This document shows positions 11,896 to 51,733 of a stretch of 64,000 nucleotides of DNA, piece after piece. The translations under genes and the position numbers were made by a program. How positions within the stretch are numbered: the first letter of the stretch is position 1; each line of letters starts with the position of its first letter. Source of the DNA: Moorella thermoacetica (GTDB lineage: Bacteria; Bacillota; DSM-521; Neomoorellales; Neomoorellaceae); the NCBI RefSeq assembly GCF_001267405.1, contig NZ_CP012369.1, positions 1,824,001 to 1,888,000 of the forward strand. The letters run 5' to 3'. A model generated the notes under the pieces. That model did not search any database. It saw only the letters and a list, made by a program, of their open reading frames with translations, and was not told where the DNA came from.

Positions 11896-12093
11896 GGTAT
11901 CCTTATTGTGCCTGAACCAGGCAGCCGCTAAACTGGTAAAAGCTTACCAGGACCAAAGCCGTCGTCCCCGGAACTTACTATAACTAAGCCTCCTTTCTAT
12001 CCTTCCGGAGACACATATTTCATGGTTAAAACTGTGTCCAATAATTGATAGACCGAGGGTTAAAAAACTGTTATAGTTTTTTTGGTGATAACC

Positions 12094-12987
12094 TTGCTCG
12101 ACAACCAGTTACTCACTTTCAAGGCCGTAGCCGAACAAAAGAGTTTCTCCCGGGCCGCCCGGGTATTACACCTGACCCAGCCGGCTATCAGCCTGCACAT
12201 CCAATCTCTGGAAGAATATTTCGGCACCCGTCTCCTGGATCGCAATAACCGCCAGGTTACCCTTACTGAGGCCGGTCGAGTTCTCTATAATTACGCCCTG
12301 GAGCTGAGCAGGCTATATGACGAAGTCAAAAAAGCCCTGGCAGATATCAGCGGCAAAGTAAAGGGCAACCTGGTGGTAGGCGCCACCCTGACTATCGGCG
12401 AGTACTTTCTGCCTTCTATTGCCGGGGAATTTAAAAGGCAGTACCCCGACGTGGAAATAACTTTGCGAATCGCCAATACCCAGGAAATCATCTGCCGGAC
12501 CCTGGATGGTGAACTGGATCTAGCCCTCATTGAAGGCCAGGCGAAGCATCCCAATCTCATTCAGGAAGATCTCTTCCAGGATGAACTGGTGCTCATTATT
12601 CACCCGGAACACCGCTGGGCCGGACGCAGAGAAATCACTCCGGAAGAATTAAGGGAAGAACCCCTCATCCTGCGAGAAGAAGGGTCAGGCACCAGGCAGA
12701 TAACCGAGGCGGGGTTAAGGAAAGCGGGGTTAGAATTATCCACTCTGAAGGTGGTAATGGAGCTGGGTAGCACCCAAGCCATAAAAGAAGCAGTCGAAGC
12801 GGGGTTGGGTGTCGCCATTATCTCCCGCCTGGCAATAAAAAAAGAGATCAGGTATAACCTGCTCCGGGAAGTAAGACTCCAGGGAATTGATTTCCGGCGC
12901 ACTTTCCACATCGCCTACAACAGGCATAAATTTCGTAGCGCCGCAGCCGAAGCTTTCCTAGCTTTTTTACTATCTACCAATTTTTAG
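12094..12987 (+). CDS. LysR family transcriptional regulator
   Basis: The 297-residue product has the LysR layout. The N-terminal winged helix-turn-helix includes FKAVAEQKSFSRAARVLHLTQPAISLHIQSLE, followed by RLLDRNNRQVTLTEAG. The effector-binding domain begins near residue 90 (GNLVVGATLTIGEYFLPSI). The closest pattern is the CysL/CbbR/YeiE branch. I prefer the TTG at 12094, giving MLDNQLLTFK, because GGTGAT lies just before it. TTG and GTG codons at 12082 and 12085 are alternatives. It converges on a YeiH-type gene. In E. coli the LysR gene yeiE is also next to yeiH, so this exporter is a likely target. Confidence 0.88.
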   Translation: MLDNQLLTFKAVAEQKSFSRAARVLHLTQPAISLHIQSLEEYFGTRLLDRNNRQVTLTEAGRVLYNYALELSRLYDEVKKALADISGKVKGNLVVGATLTIGEYFLPSIAGEFKRQYPDVEITLRIANTQEIICRTLDGELDLALIEGQAKHPNLIQEDLFQDELVLIIHPEHRWAGRREITPEELREEPLILREEGSGTRQITEAGLRKAGLELSTLKVVMELGSTQAIKEAVEAGLGVAIISRLAIKKEIRYNLLREVRLQGIDFRRTFHIAYNRHKFRSAAAEAFLAFLLSTNF

Positions 12988-18418: not shown

Positions 18419-18598
18419 TCATGAATTTTTGCCGGGAAAGACGCAATAATAGGCCGGCTGGAGCGGCTTTGTCCTGGGCAGGTGGCGAAGGATGTTTACC
18501 TCATGATAGCAAGGGCCACAAAGAAGCCACCTGTCCACCTGCTGATGGTGCTCCTGCCCGCACCTGGGACAAAAACGAAGCTCCCTCCTCGTCTGCAT
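18419..18598 (-). CDS. Small zinc-ribbon-like protein (59 aa)
   Basis: The ATG at 18598 follows a perfect GGGAGGTG site. The product starts MQTRRELRFCPRCGQEHHQQ and contains two CxxC knuckles (CPRC and CGPC), the pattern of a one-zinc ribbon. Two histidines sit between them and a basic, tyrosine-rich tail follows. I do not recognise a named family. It lies between aconitase and the hydrogenase operon on the opposite strand. Its start is about 80 bases from the hydrogenase upstream palindromes. A longer in-frame extension to 18697 lacks a ribosome site. Confidence 0.6.
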   Translation of the reverse strand: MQTRRELRFCPRCGQEHHQQVDRWLLCGPCYHEVNILRHLPRTKPLQPAYYCVFPGKNS

Positions 18599-18680
18599 GA
18601 TCAACACCTCCCGCCAGATTTTCAAGCAAGGATTGTGCCAGGTAATTCCTGGTTGATCCCGGCGCCTTCCGGTCCGGGTT

Positions 18681-18720
18681 TTAATGCAGGCGTGCATTAC
18701 TTAATGCGAGTCGGCATTAA
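18681..18720 (+). promoter_or_regulatory. Two abutting 20-bp palindromes, likely sigma-54 activator sites
   Basis: Site 1 (18681-18700) and site 2 (18701-18720) both read TTAATGC-N6-GCATTA followed by C or A. They are directly adjacent, so their centres are 20 bp (about two helical turns) apart on the same DNA face. The centres lie about 87 and 107 bp upstream of the transcription start predicted from the -24/-12 element, which is where enhancer sites for sigma-54 activators usually sit. The activator encoded at 24408-26666 is the obvious candidate to bind here. That link is inference. Confidence 0.75.
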
Positions 18721-18770: not shown

Positions 18771-18786
18771 TGGCATGAAATTTGCA
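18771..18786 (+). promoter_or_regulatory. Sigma-54 (-24/-12) promoter of the hydrogenase operon
   Basis: TGGCATGAAATTTGCA matches the consensus TGGCAYG-N4-TTGCW, with GG and GC exactly 10 bases apart. It lies about 50 bases before the hydA-type ATG at 18837 and downstream of the two palindromes. This makes the whole six-gene operon dependent on RpoN and an AAA+ activator. Confidence 0.9.
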
Positions 18787-18836
18787 ATAACTTTCAGTCA
18801 GGGGGCTAAATTTCTTCATCAGGAGGGATGGCTATC

Positions 18837-20219
18837 ATGATTTATATTGATCGGGATCTTTGTACCGGTTGCCGCCGCTGCGCCGAAATCTGTCCCACAG
18901 GGGCCATTGAGGGCAACCAGGGTGAACCCCAGATAATCAATAGAGAAATCTGCGTCAACTGTGGCCAGTGTGTGCAAATTTGCAGCGCCTATGCTTCCCC
19001 CTATACGACCAGCCCCGAGACCATGGCTGCTAAAAACCGCGAACGCCGCCTGCTCCCGGCGGCCGCCCCCGAACCCTTATTCGCGGCCTATAACGAAAGC
19101 CACGAGGAGCTGGTCCGGGAAGCCCTGGCCCGGCCGGACCTTTTTAATGCCGTGCAGTTCGCCCCGGCGATCCGGTTCGCCCTGGCGGAGGACTTCGGCC
19201 TATCACCCCAGGTCGTTACCGTCGGCCGTATTGTCGCCGCCTTGAGGCGCCTGGGCTTTAAATATGTCTATGATACCAACTTTGCCGCCGACCTAACGGT
19301 GATGGAAGAAGGCTACGAGCTGCTGCAGCGCTTGCAGGGCGACGGTGCTTTACCCCTTTTTAGCTCCTGCTGCCCGGCCTGGGTTAAATTTGTCGAGCAG
19401 GCTTACCCGCAGCTAATCGCCAACCTCTCTACCTGTAAATCACCCCAGCAAATGGCCGGTGCTATCTTTAAAACCTACACCGGCCAGCTTGACCCCGATC
19501 TGCGCTCCCGGCACCTCTTTGTAACGGCCGTCATGCCCTGCATAGCCAAGAAATTTGAATGTAACCGTCCCGAGCTTGGTGGTAGCTATGGCCGCGACGT
19601 CGACGCCGTCCTGACTACCCGGGAACTGGCCCACCTCATTAAGGATAAGGGTATTGACTGGCACAGCCTGGCAGAGGAAGAACCCGATCAGCCCCTGGGC
19701 GAATACAGCGGCGCCGGGGCTATCTTCGGCGTTACCGGCGGGGTCACCGAGGCCGTTCTAAGGACGGCGGCCGAAGTTGTAGGCGGTAAGCCCCTGGAGG
19801 AGATTGAGTTCCATGAGGTACGGGGTATGGCCGGTACCCGCAAGGTCAATATCAACCTCGGCAAAGAACAGTTGGAAATTATTATCGTGGCCGGGTTAAA
19901 GAATGTCGTCCCCATCCTGGACGACCTGATAGCCGGGAAGGCCAGCTTCCACTTTATGGAGGTCATGGCCTGCCCCGCCGGTTGTCTCAGCGGCGGCGGC
20001 CAACCGAAAATCCTGGTAGAAACCTATCGCGGCTCCATCTATCGCCAGCGGGCGGCCAGCATCTACAACCACGACCGGGATCTCCCCGTGCGCAAGGCCC
20101 ATGAAAATCCAGCCATCAAACAGCTCTACGCCGATTTTTTAGGCCAGCCCCTGGGCGAGCTATCCCACGCCCTGCTCCATACCCATTACACTGTCAGGAG
20201 GTCAGAAGAGAATGTTTAA
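18837..20219 (+). CDS. [FeFe]-hydrogenase catalytic subunit (short HydA type)
   Basis: The product forms or oxidises H2 at an H-cluster. Its 460 residues start with two ferredoxin [4Fe-4S] motifs (Cys 9/12/15/19 and 39/42/45/49). The H-cluster motifs are SCCPAW (177-182), MPCIAKKFE (233-241) and EVMACPAGCLSGGGQP (375-390). All ligand cysteines are present, and CPAGC replaces the usual CPGGC. The [2Fe-2S] and His-Cys3 domains that bifurcating HydA proteins carry at the N-terminus are absent here and appear instead in the gene at 23471. The ATG at 18837 has AGGAGGG ten bases upstream, and an ATG at 18828 is too close to it. It overlaps the next gene by 8 bases. Confidence 0.93.
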   Translation: MIYIDRDLCTGCRRCAEICPTGAIEGNQGEPQIINREICVNCGQCVQICSAYASPYTTSPETMAAKNRERRLLPAAAPEPLFAAYNESHEELVREALARPDLFNAVQFAPAIRFALAEDFGLSPQVVTVGRIVAALRRLGFKYVYDTNFAADLTVMEEGYELLQRLQGDGALPLFSSCCPAWVKFVEQAYPQLIANLSTCKSPQQMAGAIFKTYTGQLDPDLRSRHLFVTAVMPCIAKKFECNRPELGGSYGRDVDAVLTTRELAHLIKDKGIDWHSLAEEEPDQPLGEYSGAGAIFGVTGGVTEAVLRTAAEVVGGKPLEEIEFHEVRGMAGTRKVNINLGKEQLEIIIVAGLKNVVPILDDLIAGKASFHFMEVMACPAGCLSGGGQPKILVETYRGSIYRQRAASIYNHDRDLPVRKAHENPAIKQLYADFLGQPLGELSHALLHTHYTVRRSEENV

Positions 20220-20742
20220 CTCCCTGATTCTCGCCGACCCGCGCAACTGTACCGGGTGCAAGGCCTGTGAGGTCGCCTGCGCCATTGCCCATATGGAAAA
20301 ACCGGTCCTCACCGCCGGTATGGTTACCGAACCCCTGTACAGCCGGGTCTTTGTGGTTAAAAGTGGCGGTGCCTCCCTCTCCGTCCGTTGCCGCCACTGT
20401 GAAGACGCGCCCTGTGCCCGGGCCTGCCCGGTAGGGGCCATTACCCAGAAAAACAACGTGGTCCTGATTAACTCCGATAGGTGCATCGGCTGTAAAACCT
20501 GCGCCATCGTTTGCCCCTTTGGCTCTATTGAGCTGGTCTACAGGGAAAAGGAGCACAAGGTGGTGGCCCATAAATGCGATCTCTGCGAAGGACGTCCGGG
20601 GGGACCGGCCTGCGTGGAGGCCTGCTCCTCCAGGGCCCTCTCCCTGCTGGACGGCAATTCCCTCCGCAACTTGATTCAAAACCATCGCCTGGCCTCCGTC
20701 CAGGATTTGATGAACTGGGTTCATATCCACCAGTCTGCCTAG
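20212..20742 (+). CDS. Four-cluster ferredoxin-type electron-transfer subunit (HycB/HydN-like)
   Basis: The 176-residue protein has four cysteine groups of the HycB/DmsB type: CTGCKACEVACA, CRHCEDAPCARACP, CIGCKTCAIVCP and a CDLCEG...CVEACSS group. They are predicted to hold four [4Fe-4S] clusters. It should carry electrons between the hydrogenase and the flavin subunits or ferredoxin. The ATG lies inside the 3' end of the hydrogenase gene and follows AGGAGG, so the two are translationally coupled. No export signal is visible, which points to a cytoplasmic complex. Confidence 0.9.
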   Translation: MFNSLILADPRNCTGCKACEVACAIAHMEKPVLTAGMVTEPLYSRVFVVKSGGASLSVRCRHCEDAPCARACPVGAITQKNNVVLINSDRCIGCKTCAIVCPFGSIELVYREKEHKVVAHKCDLCEGRPGGPACVEACSSRALSLLDGNSLRNLIQNHRLASVQDLMNWVHIHQSA

Positions 20743-20763
20743 CGGAGAAAGAAGGATGGCTCC

Positions 20764-21165
20764 ATGATAGCTACCGCTGCTTTAATCCTCGATCCTGAAA
20801 AGTGTGTCCGTTGCGAAATATGCACCCGCCTGTGCGGGACCGGGGCCCTTAAGGGCGAGAGCGACGGCGAGGCCCTTATCCTGCGCTTTCTACCCGAACT
20901 CTGCCCGCGGGAGTGCCGAACCTGCATCGACAAATGCCCCGTCTGGGCCTTGAGCCGGGGACCCGGGCAACAAAAGAAAGAGTGGCATTTAAAGTATCCC
21001 CAGTGCCGGATTTGTGGTCGTCCCAGCCTGCCCTATCTTCCCCTGGCAGGAGGGACCGGCACCCCCGGCCCTGCCGAGGCTTTATGCCCTACCTGCCGGC
21101 GCGAGCTGGGGGCGCAAAAGCTGGAGGAAGCGGCCCCGGGAACGCCTCAGCCCGCCGGCAAGTGA
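20764..21165 (+). CDS. Small ferredoxin-like protein with extra CxxC pairs
   Basis: This 133-residue protein has an N-terminal ferredoxin-like region with CVRCEICTRLC followed by CPRECRTCIDKCP, enough cysteines for one or two [4Fe-4S] clusters. The C-terminal part has two CxxC knuckles (CRIC and CPTC) that may bind zinc. I recognise it only as an Fe-S protein of a hydrogenase operon. A similar ferredoxin-plus-knuckle layout occurs in the 26890-27264 gene of this window, which may be a relative. It lies 21 bases after the HycB-like gene and has an AAGGATGG ribosome site. Confidence 0.75.
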   Translation: MIATAALILDPEKCVRCEICTRLCGTGALKGESDGEALILRFLPELCPRECRTCIDKCPVWALSRGPGQQKKEWHLKYPQCRICGRPSLPYLPLAGGTGTPGPAEALCPTCRRELGAQKLEEAAPGTPQPAGK

Positions 21166-21213
21166 TAGACATCAGGGGAGCCCCTCATGGGGAGTAGGAG
21201 GGAGGTACAACCG

Positions 21214-21666
21214 ATGCCAGCCGAGACCATAAAACAAATTGTGGCCCGCTACCAGGAAGAAAAGGGCGCCCTGATCCCTGTATTGCAGGCAACCCAGGAA
21301 GCCCTGGGGTACCTGCCCCCGGAGGCTTTAAAGGAGATTGCCGCCGCCATGGACCTGCCCTTGAGCACCGTCTACAGCGTCGTCACCTTTTATGCCCAGT
21401 TCCACCTGCAACCCCGCGGCCGGCATGTTATCCATGTCTGCCAGGGAACAGCCTGCCATATCCGCGGGGGCAACCGTATCTTAAATCGAATCAAAGAGCT
21501 TTTACAAATCGATGCCGGGGAAACAACGCCCGATCTGCGCTTTACCCTGGAACCGGTGGCCTGCCTGGGGGCCTGTGCCCTGGCCCCGGTAATGAGCATC
21601 AGCGGGGATACCTATGGCCACTTAAAACCCGATATGATCGCCGGCATCCTAGAAAAGTACCAGTAG
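21214..21666 (+). CDS. NuoE/HydC-like [2Fe-2S] subunit
   Basis: The 150-residue product has the thioredoxin-like NuoE fold. An N-terminal helical part includes ALIPVLQATQEALGYLP and YSVVTFYAQF. The [2Fe-2S] ligands are CQGTAC and CLGAC. In electron-bifurcating hydrogenases this subunit (HydC) sits beside the NADH-oxidising flavin subunit. I place the start at the ATG 21214, right after GGAGGGAGG. An ATG at 21187 upstream lies before that site and would add nine unlikely residues. It ends 11 bases before the NuoF-like gene. Confidence 0.92.
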   Translation: MPAETIKQIVARYQEEKGALIPVLQATQEALGYLPPEALKEIAAAMDLPLSTVYSVVTFYAQFHLQPRGRHVIHVCQGTACHIRGGNRILNRIKELLQIDAGETTPDLRFTLEPVACLGACALAPVMSISGDTYGHLKPDMIAGILEKYQ

Positions 21667-21677
21667 GGGGAGTCATC

Positions 21678-23456
21678 ATGGGCCGTATACTAGTCTGTGC
21701 CGGGACCGGGTGTGTCGCCTCCCACTCTCGCCAGGTTACCGCCCGGCTGAAGGCCGCCTTGCACGCGCATCACCTGGAAGAAAGGTTCCAGGTGGATAAT
21801 ACAGGCTGCCACGGTTTCTGCGAGCAGGGGCCTCTGGTGATTATCGAGCCGGAGGGCATCCTCTACTGCCGGGTGCGGGAGGAAGACGTGGAAGCCATCG
21901 TCACCGAACACCTGGAGCAGGGTCGCCTCGTTGAACGCCTCCTCTACCAGGACCCGGTGACGAAGGAAAAGATAGCCGCCTATAACCAGATTAAGTTCTA
22001 CCGGCAGCAGTCGCGCCATGTCCTGAAAAACTGCGGTCATATCAATCCGGAAAATATCGACGCCTACCTGGCCGTCGAAGGCTACCAGGGGTTAAAAAAG
22101 GCCCTCGCCCTGCCCCGGGAAGAAGTCATCAATATAATCAAGGAGTCTGGTTTAAGGGGGCGCGGCGGTGCTGGCTTCCCCACCGGGCTGAAGTGGGAGT
22201 ACACCTTTAAAGCCCCCGGCGACCGGAAGTATGTAGTCTGTAACGCCGATGAGGGCGACCCCGGCGCCTTTATGGACCGCAGCGTCCTGGAAGGCGACCC
22301 CCACGCCGTCCTCGAAGGCATGCTCATCGCCGCCTACGCCATCGGCGCCCGGGAGGGTTATATCTACGTCCGGGCCGAGTATCCCCTGGCCGTGCAGCGG
22401 TTGCGGATCGCCCTGGCCCAGGCCCGGGAAAGGGGTTTTTGTGGCGAGCGTATCCTGGGAACCGATTTTAGCTGCGAACTCTACATCCGGGAAGGGGCCG
22501 GGGCCTTCGTCTGCGGGGAAGAAACAGCCCTCCTGGCCTCCATCCAGGGGGAGAGGGGTATGCCCCGGCCACGGCCGCCCTTCCCCGCCCGGCAGGGCCT
22601 CTGGGGCCAGCCCACCAACATTAACAACGTGGAAACCTATGCCAACGTGCCGTTGATCTTACGCCGGGGTGCCGGCTGGTATGCTTCCCTGGGTACGGAG
22701 AAAAGCAAGGGCACCAAGATATTCGCCCTGACGGGGAAAGTCAAAAACACCGGCCTGGTTGAGGTCCCCATGGGCATCACCCTGAGGGAGATTATCTTTA
22801 ACATCGGCGGCGGCATCCTGGAGGACCGGGGGTTCAAAGCAGTCCAGATCGGTGGTCCTTCCGGCGGGTGTTTGCCGGCCGAACACCTGGATCTCCCGGT
22901 GGACTACGATTCCCTTACCGCGGCCGGGGCCATGATGGGTTCCGGCGGCCTGGTAGTAATGGACGATAGTACCTGTATGGTTGAAGTAGCCCGCTTCTTC
23001 CTCAATTTTACCCAGGCGGAATCCTGCGGTAAATGTACACCCTGCCGGGAGGGCATCCAGCAGATGCTGGCCATCCTCACCCGCATCACCAGGGGGCAGG
23101 GCCGGGAGGGCGACCTCGAGCAACTTGAGCGTCTGGCCCGGGTTATCAAGGGTACGGCCCTTTGCGGCCTGGGGCAGACGGCGCCCAACCCGGTCCTGTC
23201 CACCCTGCGCTATTTCCGCGCCGAATATGAAGCCCACATCCGGGACCACAGGTGCCCGGCGAAAAGCTGCCGGGAACTCCTTACCTACCACATCGACCCT
23301 GATAAATGCAACGGTTGCACCCGTTGCCGGCGCCGCTGCCCGGCGGGTGCCATCAGCGGCGAGGCCAGGGAACCCCATACCATTGACCTGGAACTGTGTG
23401 CCCGCTGCGGTACCTGCCTGGATCTATGCCGCCAGAAAGCTATTTATGTTGAGTAG
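21678..23456 (+). CDS. NuoF/HydB-like flavin NAD(P)-binding subunit
   Basis: The 592-residue protein is the nucleotide-oxidising subunit. An N-terminal [2Fe-2S] thioredoxin-like domain (residues 1-90, with CAGTGC and CHGFCEQG) is followed by the FMN/NAD(P) domain (GRGGAGFPTGLKWE, NADEGDPGAFMDR, GAGAFVCGEETAL). A SLBB region, the N3 cluster motif ESCGKCTPCREG with CGLG, and a C-terminal pair of ferredoxin clusters (CNGCTRCRRRC and CARCGTCLDLC) complete it. This is the domain order of HydB in trimeric bifurcating hydrogenases. Whether it uses NAD or NADP cannot be read from the sequence alone. Confidence 0.94.
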   Translation: MGRILVCAGTGCVASHSRQVTARLKAALHAHHLEERFQVDNTGCHGFCEQGPLVIIEPEGILYCRVREEDVEAIVTEHLEQGRLVERLLYQDPVTKEKIAAYNQIKFYRQQSRHVLKNCGHINPENIDAYLAVEGYQGLKKALALPREEVINIIKESGLRGRGGAGFPTGLKWEYTFKAPGDRKYVVCNADEGDPGAFMDRSVLEGDPHAVLEGMLIAAYAIGAREGYIYVRAEYPLAVQRLRIALAQARERGFCGERILGTDFSCELYIREGAGAFVCGEETALLASIQGERGMPRPRPPFPARQGLWGQPTNINNVETYANVPLILRRGAGWYASLGTEKSKGTKIFALTGKVKNTGLVEVPMGITLREIIFNIGGGILEDRGFKAVQIGGPSGGCLPAEHLDLPVDYDSLTAAGAMMGSGGLVVMDDSTCMVEVARFFLNFTQAESCGKCTPCREGIQQMLAILTRITRGQGREGDLEQLERLARVIKGTALCGLGQTAPNPVLSTLRYFRAEYEAHIRDHRCPAKSCRELLTYHIDPDKCNGCTRCRRRCPAGAISGEAREPHTIDLELCARCGTCLDLCRQKAIYVE

Positions 23457-23470
23457 ATGGGGGTGAAAAA

Positions 23471-24394
23471 ATGCCAGGTGTTTCTTTAACCATCAATGAT
23501 AAAAAAGTACGGGTGCCGGCCGGGACTACCATCCTGGAGGCGGCCCGGGAGCTAAATATCACTATACCTACCCTGTGTCACGATAAACGCCTTTCCCCCT
23601 TCGGTGCCTGTCGCCTCTGTGTGGTCGAAGTCCGGGGGAGGAAAAACCTGCCTGCCGCCTGTGTCACCCCGGTAGAAGAGGGCATGACCGTCCTGACGGA
23701 ATCGCCGGCGGTAGTCGAAGCCCGGCGGACCATCATTGAACTCCTGCTGGCAAACCATCCCCTGGATTGCCTGACCTGCGAAAAAAGCGGCAACTGCCGC
23801 CTCCAGGACTACGCCTATCGCTACGGGGTCAAGAGAACGCCCTTCGAGGGAACGAGGGACCAGCTTCCCCTGGACGATAATAACCCCTTTATCATCCGGG
23901 ATCCCAACAAGTGCATTCTTTGCGGCAAGTGCGTGCGGGCCTGCCAGGAGATCCGCGGCCAGGCTGTCCTCGGTTTTGCTTTCCGGGGCCCGGCCACCAG
24001 GGTTGTTCCGCCCCTGGATGTATCCCTGGGGGAATCCGATTGCGTCTTTTGCCAGAACTGTGTGGCCGTCTGTCCTACCGGCGCCCTGCGGGACAAATAC
24101 CTGGCCGGCAAGGGCCGCTGGTGGGAATTCCAGCCGGAAGCCGTCACCTGTCCCTTCTGCGCCAACGGCTGCCACTTTTACCTCTTGAGGAAGGAGGGCA
24201 AAGTGGTGGCCGTGGCTGCCGGCGGTGCGGCACCGGGCCGGCCCATGTGCCTGCGTGGCCGTCTGGCCCTGACCCTCATTTTCTGCGAGGAACCGCCCCA
24301 GCCCCAGATTAAGACGGAAAAAGGCTTTGCGGCCGTCAGTTGGACCGAGGCCCTGGGCCTGGAAGAGCTGGCCGGAAAACTCTGGCCCAAGTAA
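23471..24394 (+). CDS. NuoG/FdhA N-terminal-type Fe-S subunit with truncated molybdopterin-enzyme domain
   Basis: The 307-residue protein begins with a [2Fe-2S] ferredoxin domain (CHDKRLSPFGACRLCVVEV). A His-Cys3 [4Fe-4S] domain (HPLDCLTCEKSGNCRLQ) and two ferredoxin clusters (CILCGKCVRACQE and CVFCQNCVAVCP) follow. This is the N-terminal set of NuoG, HydA and FdhA. After these comes the small [4Fe-4S] domain of molybdopterin oxidoreductases (CPFCANGC ... RPMCLRGR) with all four cysteines, but the protein stops about 60 residues later and lacks any molybdenum-binding domain. It appears to supply as a separate chain the domains missing from the hydrogenase subunit. It converges on the activator gene 14 bases away. 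Confidence 0.85.
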   Translation: MPGVSLTINDKKVRVPAGTTILEAARELNITIPTLCHDKRLSPFGACRLCVVEVRGRKNLPAACVTPVEEGMTVLTESPAVVEARRTIIELLLANHPLDCLTCEKSGNCRLQDYAYRYGVKRTPFEGTRDQLPLDDNNPFIIRDPNKCILCGKCVRACQEIRGQAVLGFAFRGPATRVVPPLDVSLGESDCVFCQNCVAVCPTGALRDKYLAGKGRWWEFQPEAVTCPFCANGCHFYLLRKEGKVVAVAAGGAAPGRPMCLRGRLALTLIFCEEPPQPQIKTEKGFAAVSWTEALGLEELAGKLWPK

Positions 24395-24407: not shown

Positions 24408-26666
24408 TTATTGATGCTCCAGCCCGTACTTTTTGATTTTGCGCACTACAGTCGACTGGTTTACCCCCAGCTTTTCGGCAACCTGGTAAGTGCTCCTGTA
24501 CTTTTCCAGGGCCTTTAACAGCAACTGTTTTTCAACCTCTTCAATGGCTTCTTTCATGGGTATAATATCTTTTACCAGCATATGGGAGCTATATCTCGCC
24601 GGGTCGTCGCGGATATAATAGGGTAAATGCTCAGGTAGAATCTCCGTCCCTTCTACCAGGACGAAAAGCTGCTCGATGACGTTATGGAGTTCCCTTACAT
24701 TGCCGGGCCAGGGATAGGCCAGGAGATACCTCCTGGCCCGGCGGCTAATCCTTTTTTCTTGCTTGTAACGCCGGTTCAGCCGGTCCATAAAATGGTCGAT
24801 GAGGGCTTCGATATCTTCCGGCCGTTCCCGTAAAGGGGGGATGGTCAGGGGGATTACATTCAGGCGGTAATACAGATCCTCCCGGAAGGTCCCTTCCCGG
24901 ACCATCTGCAAGAGGTTTTTATTGGTCGCCGAGATAATGCGAATATTGAGTTTGATCTCCCTGATCCCCCCCACCCGTACCAGGCGCTGCTCCTGTAAGA
25001 CCTGCAGGAGCTTAACCTGTAGCTTTAAGGGGAGTTCAGCGATTTCGTCCAGGAATACCGTTCCCCCCTCGCCCAACTCCAGCTGGCCCATCTTTCCCTC
25101 CCGGTTGGCCCCGGTAAAAGCCCCCCGTTCGTAGCCAAAAAGCTCGGATTCCAGCAGGTTTTCCGGAATAGCGCCGCAGTTTATTTTCACAAACGGCCCC
25201 TTGCCGCGCTCGCTTAAGGCATGGATCAGGCGGGCGACTACTTCCTTACCGACGCCGGATTCCCCCAGGATTAACACCGTGGAATCCACCCTGGCTACCC
25301 GTTCCGCCAGGTAGAGGACCCTTAACATCCGCGGGCTGGCGACAATAATGTTTCTTTCCTGGAGCAATTCCATGACCCCGGGGCCGGGCCTGTCGCCGGG
25401 ACTTTTATATAGATTGACGAAATGCATCAGGTTGCTGGCCGCCCGGGACAGCAGGTCGCTCTTCTGTTCCAGGAGATAGGGCAGGCACATATCGATCTCC
25501 GCCAGGCCCTGGTAAACGGCTATGGCTTTCTCCCGGCAGGAGTGATAGCCGCAGGCGCCACAGTTCAGTTCATCGGCCGGCGTAAATTTGTTGGTCAGCC
25601 GTAAGATGCGTTTAATATCTTTCTCGCCGGGGAGGGGCAGGGACGATTGTTTATTGTGAAAGCTCCGCGCCAGGTCGGGGGCTAGGATTTCCGGCTCGCG
25701 CGCCTCCTGACAGCGGCGGTAGTAGGCGGCTACCAGCTCCTTTCTCTTTACCTGGTTGACCACAACACCCATTCCGGGACCCATGACGCAGCCTTCGCAA
25801 AAAAGGGCGTCGATTAAGCGGGGCCGGATCTCCCCCCGTGCCAGGCCCTCCAGGGCCGCCAGCACACCTTCTTTCCCTTCAACCAGCAAAAGATCCTGGT
25901 CGGCAATATCCGGGATCGCGCCCATGCTCCGGCTGAGTCCCCCGGGCAGGGGAAAAAGCCGGCTGACTGCCACCGGCGGGCTGTCCAGGGCTGCCGCAAC
26001 CCCGGGATGTTCCAGATGCTCAACGGCAAGTAACTCCTTAATTTCCGCAAATGTCAGTACATAATCTACAGCGCCGGCTACCTCCGGATCCAGAATCTCT
26101 TCTTTTTTAGCGATACAGGGGCCGATAAAAGCCACTTTCACGGGACCCAGGTGTTTTTTAAGAAGCCTTCCCAGGGCTATGGAGGGGGAGACTACCGGTA
26201 ACAGGTAAGGAATGAGGGACGGGAAGTGCCTCTCGACCAGATTGACCACCGCATAGCAGGCCGTACTGATGGCGGGAGTATTCCTCTGTTTTAGCACCCT
26301 TTGATACTCCCTGGCAACCAGCAGCGCCCCCACGGCCACCTCCCATACCCGGGCAAAACCAAGTTTCTTCAGGGCGCCGGCCACCTGGCCGGCGGTCCAA
26401 CCAGGAAAAGCCGCTGGAAATGACGGCGCCAGGCAGGCTACCATCTCCTGGTGCTCCTTTAACGCTGCCAGGACGGCCGCCTGGCTGCCGGCTACCTGTT
26501 TGGCCCCCTGGGAGCAAAAAGCCAGGCACATGCCGCAGCTGATGCAGCGTTCGGCGATAACCTCCGCCTGGCCCTTGTTTATTCTGATGGCCTTGACCGG
26601 GCAATTGCGGACACAGGAATAGCACTGACGGCACCTTCCAGTAGCAGTGTTGACTATCCCGCCCAT
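24408..26666 (-). CDS. Sigma-54 activator fused to a sensory-type [FeFe]-hydrogenase module
   Basis: This 752-residue protein joins several modules. Two ferredoxin clusters come first (Cys 12/15/18/22 and 41/44/47/51). A HydA-like domain follows with reduced motifs TACYAVV (Cys 137), GPCIAKKEE (Cys 184) and [11 protein letters not shown] (Cys 290/293). Next is a [4Fe-4S] domain (CGACGYHSC...C, 369-394), then an AAA+ sigma-54 domain from about residue 435 ([14 protein letters not shown] loop) and a Fis-type HTH at the end. The single-cysteine first motif is typical of sensory rather than catalytic [FeFe]-hydrogenases. It should sense H2 or redox state and activate RpoN promoters, most likely the one at 18771. 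GGGAGG precedes the ATG. A 7-bp inverted repeat, AACTGGA/TCCAGTT (26701-26725), lies just upstream. Confidence 0.92.
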
Positions 26667-47439: not shown

Positions 47440-47661
47440 AACTTTGCTTGTCACCTCCACAGTGCATTCCGGGACCCGCTTCCGGCATCCCATAACGGCA
47501 TTAATATCGCACTTTTCTAAAATAATACCCCGGCCGTTAAAGGTATAACTATGCCCCCAAATAATTGCCTCCCGTAGTATTTCCGGTCATTTATTACCCT
47601 CCCCTGCCTTGTGAAAGTAACGTATTTATACATGTTTTTATAGCAAGTTTCGTGCCAGCAA

Positions 47662-50044: not shown

Positions 50045-51733
50045 CTAATTGATATCATAACGCTTGAGCTTTTGATAAAGGCCGGAGGGGTGAATACCCA
50101 GGAGACGGGCCGCTTCCTGTTTGTTTCCACCAGCGGCCGCGAGGGCCTTTAAGATAACTTCCCTTTCCGCCGTAGCGACAGCACTCTTCAGCTTCAGGCC
50201 ACCCCCGCCACCAATCGTCCTTTGCATGGTGGCCGGGAGATGCTTCAAGGTAATTATTTCTTCCCCCGGATCCAGGAAATTAAAGGCATGCTCCAGGACA
50301 TTTTCCAGCTCCCGGACATTCCCCGGCCAGCTATAGCGGGAAAAAAGCCGCTGTACCTCCGGATCCAGGCCCCGGACCGTCTGGTGGTAGCGTGCATTTA
50401 AACGCCGGATAATGGCCGCCACCAGTATTTCGAGGTCCCCCGGCCGTTCCCTTAAGGGTGGTACCGTCAGGGTAACCACCGCCAGGCGGTAGTAAAGGTC
50501 AAGGCGAAATTTGCCGGCCGCCTCCAGGGCCAGGAGATCCTGGTTGGTGGCAGCAATAATCCTTACATCAACCTTGATGGTCCGGCGTCCCCCGACCCGT
50601 TCAAAGGCCCTTTCCTGCAGGACCCGCAGGAGCTTGGGCTGCATACTGAGGGGCAGGTCGCCGACTTCATCCAGGAAGATGGTACCGCCGTCAGCCAGTT
50701 CAAACTTGCCCGGTTTGCCGCCCCGGGCGGCGCCGGTAAAGGCCCCCTCTTCGTAGCCGAAGAGTTCGGCCTCCAGCAGGTTTTCCGGGATGGCGGCACA
50801 GTTGATCTTGATCAATGGTTCATTCCGGCGAGGACTGGCCCGGTGGATGGCCTGGGCCAGCAGTTCCTTCCCGGTACCGCTCTCGCCGGTAATCAAAACG
50901 TTAGCCTCGCCGCGGGCTACCCGGGCCGCCATTTTTTTTAGCCGGACCATAGCCGGGCTCACCCCCAGGATGCCCTGCCAGGCGTCCTGGTCGCCCTGGA
51001 TTGACTGGAGTTCCTGCTGGTAGAAAAGAACCTTGCCCTCCAGGACCTGCAGGCGGCGGGCGAGGTCGCTGAAACCGGCGGCTGCCAGGTCCTCGAGATC
51101 CAGGGCCTTACCGACTCCTCCCAGGAGATGCCCGGCCCCATCTTTAACCGGCACTTCCGATAATAGCAATTTTTTGCCCCGGAAGGCCACTTCCCGGCCG
51201 GCTACCGCCATCCCCGAAGATAGGACCTCCGGCAAGGAGGTAAAGGGCAAAATATCCTTTACTTCCCGGCCGATCAGGGCACCGGCCTTTGCACCCAGGA
51301 GGCTGGCATATAAATGGTTAATGGCGACCACCACCCCCCGGCCGTCGACGACCACCAGGTATAGAGGAAAATCGTCAAGGAGGGAGGCGTAGAGTTCGTT
51401 AAGGGCTTTGAGGGAATTCGTCTCAGGCTGCTCGTCACTGAAAAGAAGGACGACACCTCCCCCATCGTCGGGGAAATAATCGACCCGATAGATTCTACTG
51501 CCGGCGGTAAAGCTGGTCCCAAGGAGAGGGCCCTTACGGGTCAGGACCTCGGCCAGGCGGGTCTCAGGAAAGACTTCCGTCAGGCGGCGGCCCCTGAGAT
51601 CACAGCCGTCCAATCCCAGGATGGCGGTCGCCAGGGAATTGGCCACCTTAATAAGGCCCCCGGCGTCAACATAAATCATCCCCTGCCGCCGGGCGGCGAG
51701 AATTGCCCCCCAGAAGTCCAGATGCTCCTTCAC
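50045..51733 (-). CDS. PAS-domain sigma-54-dependent transcriptional activator
   Basis: The 562-residue protein has two PAS-like regions (about residues 12-95 and 110-215, the second with YLVVVDGRGVVVAINHLYASLLG). A short coiled coil is followed by the AAA+ domain (GESGTGKELLAQAIH, GAFTGA in the EEGAFTGAARG loop, and FLDEVGDLP). The C-terminal Fis HTH is QEAARLLGIHPSGLYQKLKRY. PAS domains sense redox, oxygen or small ligands. It is co-oriented with and directly upstream of the nitrate-reductase-like gene. No -24/-12 promoter was seen in front of either the operon or the adjacent ADH gene, so its target is not clear. Confidence 0.9.
   Translation of the reverse strand: MKEHLDFWGAILAARRQGMIYVDAGGLIKVANSLATAILGLDGCDLRGRRLTEVFPETRLAEVLTRKGPLLGTSFTAGSRIYRVDYFPDDGGGVVLLFSDEQPETNSLKALNELYASLLDDFPLYLVVVDGRGVVVAINHLYASLLGAKAGALIGREVKDILPFTSLPEVLSSGMAVAGREVAFRGKKLLLSEVPVKDGAGHLLGGVGKALDLEDLAAAGFSDLARRLQVLEGKVLFYQQELQSIQGDQDAWQGILGVSPAMVRLKKMAARVARGEANVLITGESGTGKELLAQAIHRASPRRNEPLIKINCAAIPENLLEAELFGYEEGAFTGAARGGKPGKFELADGGTIFLDEVGDLPLSMQPKLLRVLQERAFERVGGRRTIKVDVRIIAATNQDLLALEAAGKFRLDLYYRLAVVTLTVPPLRERPGDLEILVAAIIRRLNARYHQTVRGLDPEVQRLFSRYSWPGNVRELENVLEHAFNFLDPGEEIITLKHLPATMQRTIGGGGGLKLKSAVATAEREVILKALAAAGGNKQEAARLLGIHPSGLYQKLKRYDIN

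Follow-up and report, generated by a model that had tools for sequence, protein, structure and literature searches.

Two 20-bp palindromes stand end to end at positions 18681 to 18720 of the stretch of the Moorella thermoacetica genome analyzed here (64,000 nucleotides; the window), between two divergent perfect -24/-12 promoters. This raises the question of which protein uses them and which genes they serve. The preliminary description had predicted that a sigma-54 activator binds there as two dimers. We consider it highly probable from the sequence comparisons below that the palindromes are a paired UAS (enhancer) for the sigma-54 activator (bEBP) encoded about 6 kb away, and that they activate the [FeFe]-hydrogenase operon lying between them and the bEBP gene. 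The coordinates are listed in Table 1.

Table 1. Features of the window discussed in the text
Feature	Position	Strand	Remarks
UAS site A (candidate)	18681-18700		TTAATGC-AGGCGT-GCATTAC, single arm mismatch
UAS site B (candidate)	18701-18720		TTAATGC-GAGTCG-GCATTAA, perfect 7+7, abuts site A
Sigma-54 (-24/-12) promoter TGGCATGAAATTTGCA	18771-18786	+	Perfect match; predicted +1 at 18797
Divergent sigma-54 (-24/-12) promoter TGGCACAATCCTTGCT	18625-18640	-	Perfect match; predicted +1 near 18614
[FeFe]-hydrogenase catalytic subunit, HydA C-terminal part	18828-20219	+	First gene of target operon; Fe_hyd_lg_C + Fe_hyd_SSU; spans positions 201-571 of group A6 model
HydN-like ferredoxin	20212-20742	+	Target operon
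Fer4 protein	20764-21165	+	Target operon
NuoE/HydC	21187-21666	+	Target operon
NuoF/HydB	21678-23456	+	Target operon
HydA N-terminal part	23471-24394	+	Target operon; spans group A6 model positions 1-208
59-codon ORF, zinc-ribbon-like, two CxxC	18419-18598	-	Behind divergent promoter; ribosome-binding site GGGAGGTG
Candidate cognate bEBP	24408-26666	-	2x[4Fe-4S], Fe_hyd_lg_C-like, Cx2Cx4Cx16C FeS, AAA+ sigma-54 activator, HTH_50 (TyrR type)
-24/-12 promoter of second window bEBP	47642-47657	-	Near the bEBP gene at 50045-51733
Second window bEBP	50045-51733	-	

Geometry and rarity of the paired palindromes

Both palindromes were present as described before, with TTAATGC half-sites and a 6-bp spacer in each. 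Their centers, at 18690.5 and 18710.5, were indeed exactly 20 bp apart. The further statement that this places two dimers on one face of the DNA holds nearly but not exactly, since 20 bp correspond to 1.9 helical turns.

Lone 7-6-7 palindromes were not rare in the 64-kb window, where we counted 17 perfect ones and 141 with 6/7 or more paired positions. A neighboring pair with at least 12/14 half-site letters in common was found once in the window, versus once in 100 simulated windows. The genome-wide pattern search that had been called for yielded sites A and B as the only sites with no or one mismatch in 2.53 Mb. All eight sites with two mismatches were within open frames of 435 to 1536 nt, and a convincing -24/-12 element was detected at none of these eight; a wider regulon in this genome was rejected on this basis. 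Autoregulation of the bEBP via the TTAATGC motif was also rejected, since no site with up to three mismatches is located near its gene.

Perfect -24/-12 sites are scarce, with only nine in the whole genome. The pair overlaps neither of the flanking promoter cores, being separated from them by about 50 and 40 bp, and a -24/-12 promoter lies downstream of it on either side. Relative to the predicted start of the hydrogenase promoter, the centers are at -106.5 and -86.5; by the same arithmetic, they are at about -76.5 and -96.5 relative to the divergent start. Given this second promoter, the pair may act on transcription in both directions.

The hydrogenase operon and the divergent ORF

The six-gene operon behind the plus-strand promoter (18828 to 24394, of which 20212 to 24394 follows the first gene) contains HydA, NuoF/HydB and NuoE/HydC homologues together, as in NADH-linked [FeFe] hydrogenases of the HydABC type. 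An alternative start of the first gene is possible at ATG 18837. The two parts of HydA are encoded separately, by the first and the last gene of the operon. The catalytic half of HydA shows 55 to 57% identity to a hydrogenase subunit adjoining formate dehydrogenase genes in two other genomes (G020 and G356), and the tandem motif was absent from these formate-dehydrogenase-linked clusters. A bEBP gene with a product about 40% identical to the window bEBP is present in G356 (L160:15544-17856); behind it lie a -24/-12 promoter and then a formate dehydrogenase/hydrogenase cluster.

The coding status of the 59-codon ORF behind the divergent promoter is doubtful. It was present in only two of the 18 genomes of the family, this one and the close relative G008. 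In G008 its frame is intact, and the codon changes were 9 nonsynonymous versus 4 synonymous, so that purifying selection on it is not supported.

The regulator and the other bEBPs of the genome

The candidate cognate bEBP gene follows directly after the end of the hydrogenase operon and is convergent with it. Its product carries a sigma-54 interaction domain (AAA+ domain PF00158, 232 bits), and the genome encodes sigma-54 by one rpoN gene. The HTH matched HTH_50 (PF18024) with 56 bits, versus 31 to 50 bits in five other bEBPs; among solved structures, its best match was the TyrR homologue 1g2h (E = 0.0014).

The N-terminal part has the layout of HydS proteins, with two [4Fe-4S] motifs at the N terminus and the Cx2Cx4Cx16C motif after the hydrogenase domain. 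The proton-relay Cys (C299 in CpI) is absent (STAC-Y versus SSCCPAW in HydA). In the H-cluster region, L1 and L2 have one Cys each, and L3 has a CxxC, versus CxxxC in HydA. This cysteine pattern and the missing proton-relay Cys were common to all homologues aligned. With the proton-relay Cys missing and CxxC in L3, H2 sensing by the bEBP appears uncertain.

True bEBPs number only four in the genome, and a separate -24/-12 promoter is located near the gene of each. By eye, the paralogue at G000:C1:1649850 was accompanied by paired TACAAA-type repeats ~19 bp apart, which recur across Moorellaceae loci, and the second window bEBP by a TTTCTA-N6-TAGAAA-like pair 21 bp apart, which is partly conserved in G008. 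On inspection, no clean repeat pair was found at the promoter of the fourth. Behind a paralogous hydrogenase-domain bEBP, a conserved -24/-12 promoter precedes the gene of a conserved protein of 54 to 64 aa (ELNEAYARLDERYNCLRSNWEWF) to which no function is assigned (L104:4299-4661, corresponding to G000:C1 about 1649300-1649661; orthologous loci L106-L117; similar ORFs in L124 and L138).

Conservation in the close relative G008

Besides the window genome, G008 is the only one of the family's 18 genomes with the operon and the bEBP, and the two bEBPs are 93% identical. All 28 half-site positions were unchanged in G008, while each of the two spacers carried a substitution; the 90 other intervening positions showed 7 differences, numbers that are small. 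The hydrogenase promoter had changes at permitted positions only, and the 15-base core of the divergent promoter was unchanged.

Recurrence of the paired sites in Bacillota

The preliminary description had called the motif searchable, and this was borne out. Using the 40-bp tandem motif alone as a query (up to three mismatches), we detected eight loci in 399 Bacillota genomes, versus about 0.005 expected and none with the reversed pattern as a control; the 20-bp spacing of these loci was fixed by the query. All eight were near a -24/-12 element, so the link to such promoters, on whose presence the earlier proposal had been made to depend, exists. In addition to the window and G008, there were six new loci. 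In five of them (G214, G283, G284, G241 and G353), the pair is located just behind a bEBP gene with an LGVNQST HTH, and a -24/-12 promoter and NuoE-NuoF/HydB-HydA genes follow downstream. In the G284 locus (L177:7289-9074), a transposase ORF interrupts the HTH end of the bEBP gene and separates it from the paired sites, which remain, as does the promoter.

The sixth new locus (G318, L180) has no adjacent bEBP and precedes a crotonase/thiolase operon, which counts against the UAS reading. Here the TTAATGC tandem is upstream of a -24/-12 promoter (L180:2859-2996), and this operon is a possible non-hydrogenase target of the LGVNQST HTH class.

The sensor part of these activators varies: most have a hydrogenase-like domain, with or without PAS, and those of G241 and G353 have ferredoxin domains only. 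The paired site thus goes with the HTH and not with the sensor.

Conversely, we started from the regulators, finding LGVNQST activators by protein similarity and allowing a pair spacing of 19 to 21 bp. All four further bEBPs with this HTH (G162, G129, G236 and G093) carry the pair, each at 20-bp spacing and no more than about 30 bp from the bEBP stop codon. Their shared core is [AG]ATGC-N6-GCAT[TC], and a -24/-12-like site precedes a hydC/NuoE-like gene in each case. In contrast, 31 hydrogenase-domain bEBPs whose HTHs are of other kinds (one HTH unreadable) all lacked the pair. The difference is significant (Fisher, 2e-5), with the reservation that the four loci come from one small class and are related, hence not fully independent. 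Taken with the five of six new loci, this supports the prediction of two sites for a sigma-54 activator: the dyads, which in the window lie at enhancer distance (-86.5 and -106.5), co-occur with the HTH across species. Pair, regulator type and operon recur together in several other bacterial families.

A general association of the pair with hydrogenase-domain bEBPs is ruled out, since those with other HTHs have other repeats. A single 13/14 site in L124 is not tandem. In loci L121, L126, L128, L131, L133 and L135 of other Bacillota, hydrogenase-domain bEBPs adjoin [NiFe]-hydrogenase small-subunit genes. In most of them, a -24/-12 promoter is located between the two genes, and several of these loci have repeats of the TGT-N11-ACA type.

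Two further properties of the window locus count against a UAS for this bEBP. Some 6 kb separate the sites from the bEBP gene, which is convergent with the operon, whereas at the other bEBP-linked loci the pair directly adjoins the stop codon of the bEBP gene. Furthermore, proximal third sites, which are present in most other loci, are missing.

Alternative explanations

Repeats of such a size and symmetry would be suitable for many dimeric regulators, and an unrelated repressor or activator (e.g., of the Rex, LysR or TetR type) acting on the intergenic region could use the palindromes as operators. A LysR-type gene is present at 12082 to 12987 of the window, and in G214 the hydrogenase operon is followed by a Rex-like gene. 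However, the tandem tracks the LGVNQST HTH and -24/-12 promoters and is lacking at activators with other HTHs, and its distance from both promoter cores fits an enhancer better than a steric block; we regard such operators as very unlikely. It is even less likely that the sites belong to another bEBP of the genome, such as the second one of the window or the paralogue at G000:C1:1649850. All four bEBPs have the AAA+ domain in common, but the HTHs of the others are of other types, and these two candidates have their own promoters with the different repeats described above.

A structural or RNA role, as a hairpin terminator or attenuator or as cruciform DNA, has a smaller probability still. The repeats could form 7-bp stems, and elsewhere the pair is located at the 3' end of a bEBP gene. 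Against this, no T run follows the repeats, the spacers vary freely, and in the window the pair is upstream of both predicted starts and 6 kb from the bEBP gene. Moreover, the spacing was 20 bp in all four loci of the regulator-first search, although 19 to 21 bp were allowed. The least probable explanation is that chance repeats happen to lie beside a sigma-54 promoter: single 7-6-7 palindromes are common, but the eight tandem loci, all near -24/-12 elements, already refute it statistically.

Proposed mechanism

For the paired UAS, the following sequence of events can be envisaged. Each 20-bp palindrome would bind one dimer of the bEBP through its TyrR-type HTH. Since the palindromes abut, with about two helical turns between centers, two dimers could bind cooperatively and seed the active AAA+ oligomer. 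DNA looping would then carry the oligomer to sigma-54 RNA polymerase at the hydrogenase promoter, and the operon would probably be switched on; looping to the divergent promoter may also occur if that promoter is used. As suggested by the domain content of the bEBP, the signal is presumably H2 or the iron-sulfur redox state, which the HydS-like module at the N terminus would pass on to the AAA+ domain; the hydrogenase operon would thus be under the control of a hydrogenase-like sensor.

We give even chances to a wider proposal, according to which these bEBPs form a one-component class. Each protein would combine a hydrogenase-like module for sensing H2 or redox state with a sigma-54 AAA+ activator and a TyrR-type HTH, and would control hydrogenase operons via a conserved tandem enhancer of 2 x 20 bp. 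This enhancer would act in both directions in this genus and also drive the small zinc-ribbon protein.

Comparison with known systems

A survey of Clostridiales bEBPs (Nie et al. 2019, PMC6615313) lists 39 EBP groups, with multiple UAS per operon in 32 of the 39 and TGT-N10-12-ACA motifs in 15 groups. As in the window, these UAS are inverted repeats ahead of -24/-12 promoters; in most cases they are close to the EBP gene, and the domain figure of the survey includes EBPs with Fe_hyd_lg_C and FeS domains. In contrast, a hydrogenase operon is the target of none of the 39 groups in Table 1 of the survey. One of the individual logos of the survey may match TTAATGC-N6-GCATTAA.

TyrR boxes (TGTAAA-N6-TTTACA) resemble the palindromes in that they are N6 inverted repeats, occur in pairs, include an example at divergent promoters and are bound by a related HTH (Pfam HTH_50); adjacent boxes cooperate by dimer-dimer interaction (PMC4374768). 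However, the half-sites differ (TGTAAA versus TTAATGC), leaving the N6 dyad geometry alone in common. Furthermore, the window promoters are of the sigma-54 type, and the window sensor is hydrogenase-like, whereas that of TyrR binds aromatic amino acids.

The putative sensory [FeFe] hydrogenases of groups C and D (HydS) share with the window bEBP two N-terminal [4Fe-4S] motifs, the Cx2Cx4Cx16C motif and a hydrogenase domain without the proton-relay Cys (PMC8163306, PMC13104023). In contrast to them, the window protein carries AAA+ and HTH domains fused to the sensor and thus unites sensor and activator; its L3 loop has CxxC instead of CxxxC, and its H-cluster is only putative. The influence of HydS-like proteins on hydrogenase expression was described as not yet elucidated (PMC10084766). 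In the open literature, with subscription papers mostly outside the search, we found no report of hydrogenases under sigma-54 control by such regulators and no paper assigning the TTAATGC motif to the hydrogenase-domain bEBP type. The locus ties sensor, activator, candidate site and target into a single compact circuit, accessible to tests with a DNA fragment of 150 bp, and the motif is a handle for finding hydrogenase operons under such control in other anaerobes.

Divergent sigma-54 operons were reportedly described by Fievet in 2011 for the orp genes of Desulfovibrio vulgaris. There (PMC3897727), two divergent sigma-54 units are served by one cognate activator, as may be the case in the window; the activator and targets are unrelated to those described here, and in the window the use of the second promoter is presumed. 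Paired UAS for bEBPs are ordinary and already known. The link of motif, regulator and target is unusually clean here, and the least ordinary part is the possible bidirectional enhancer.
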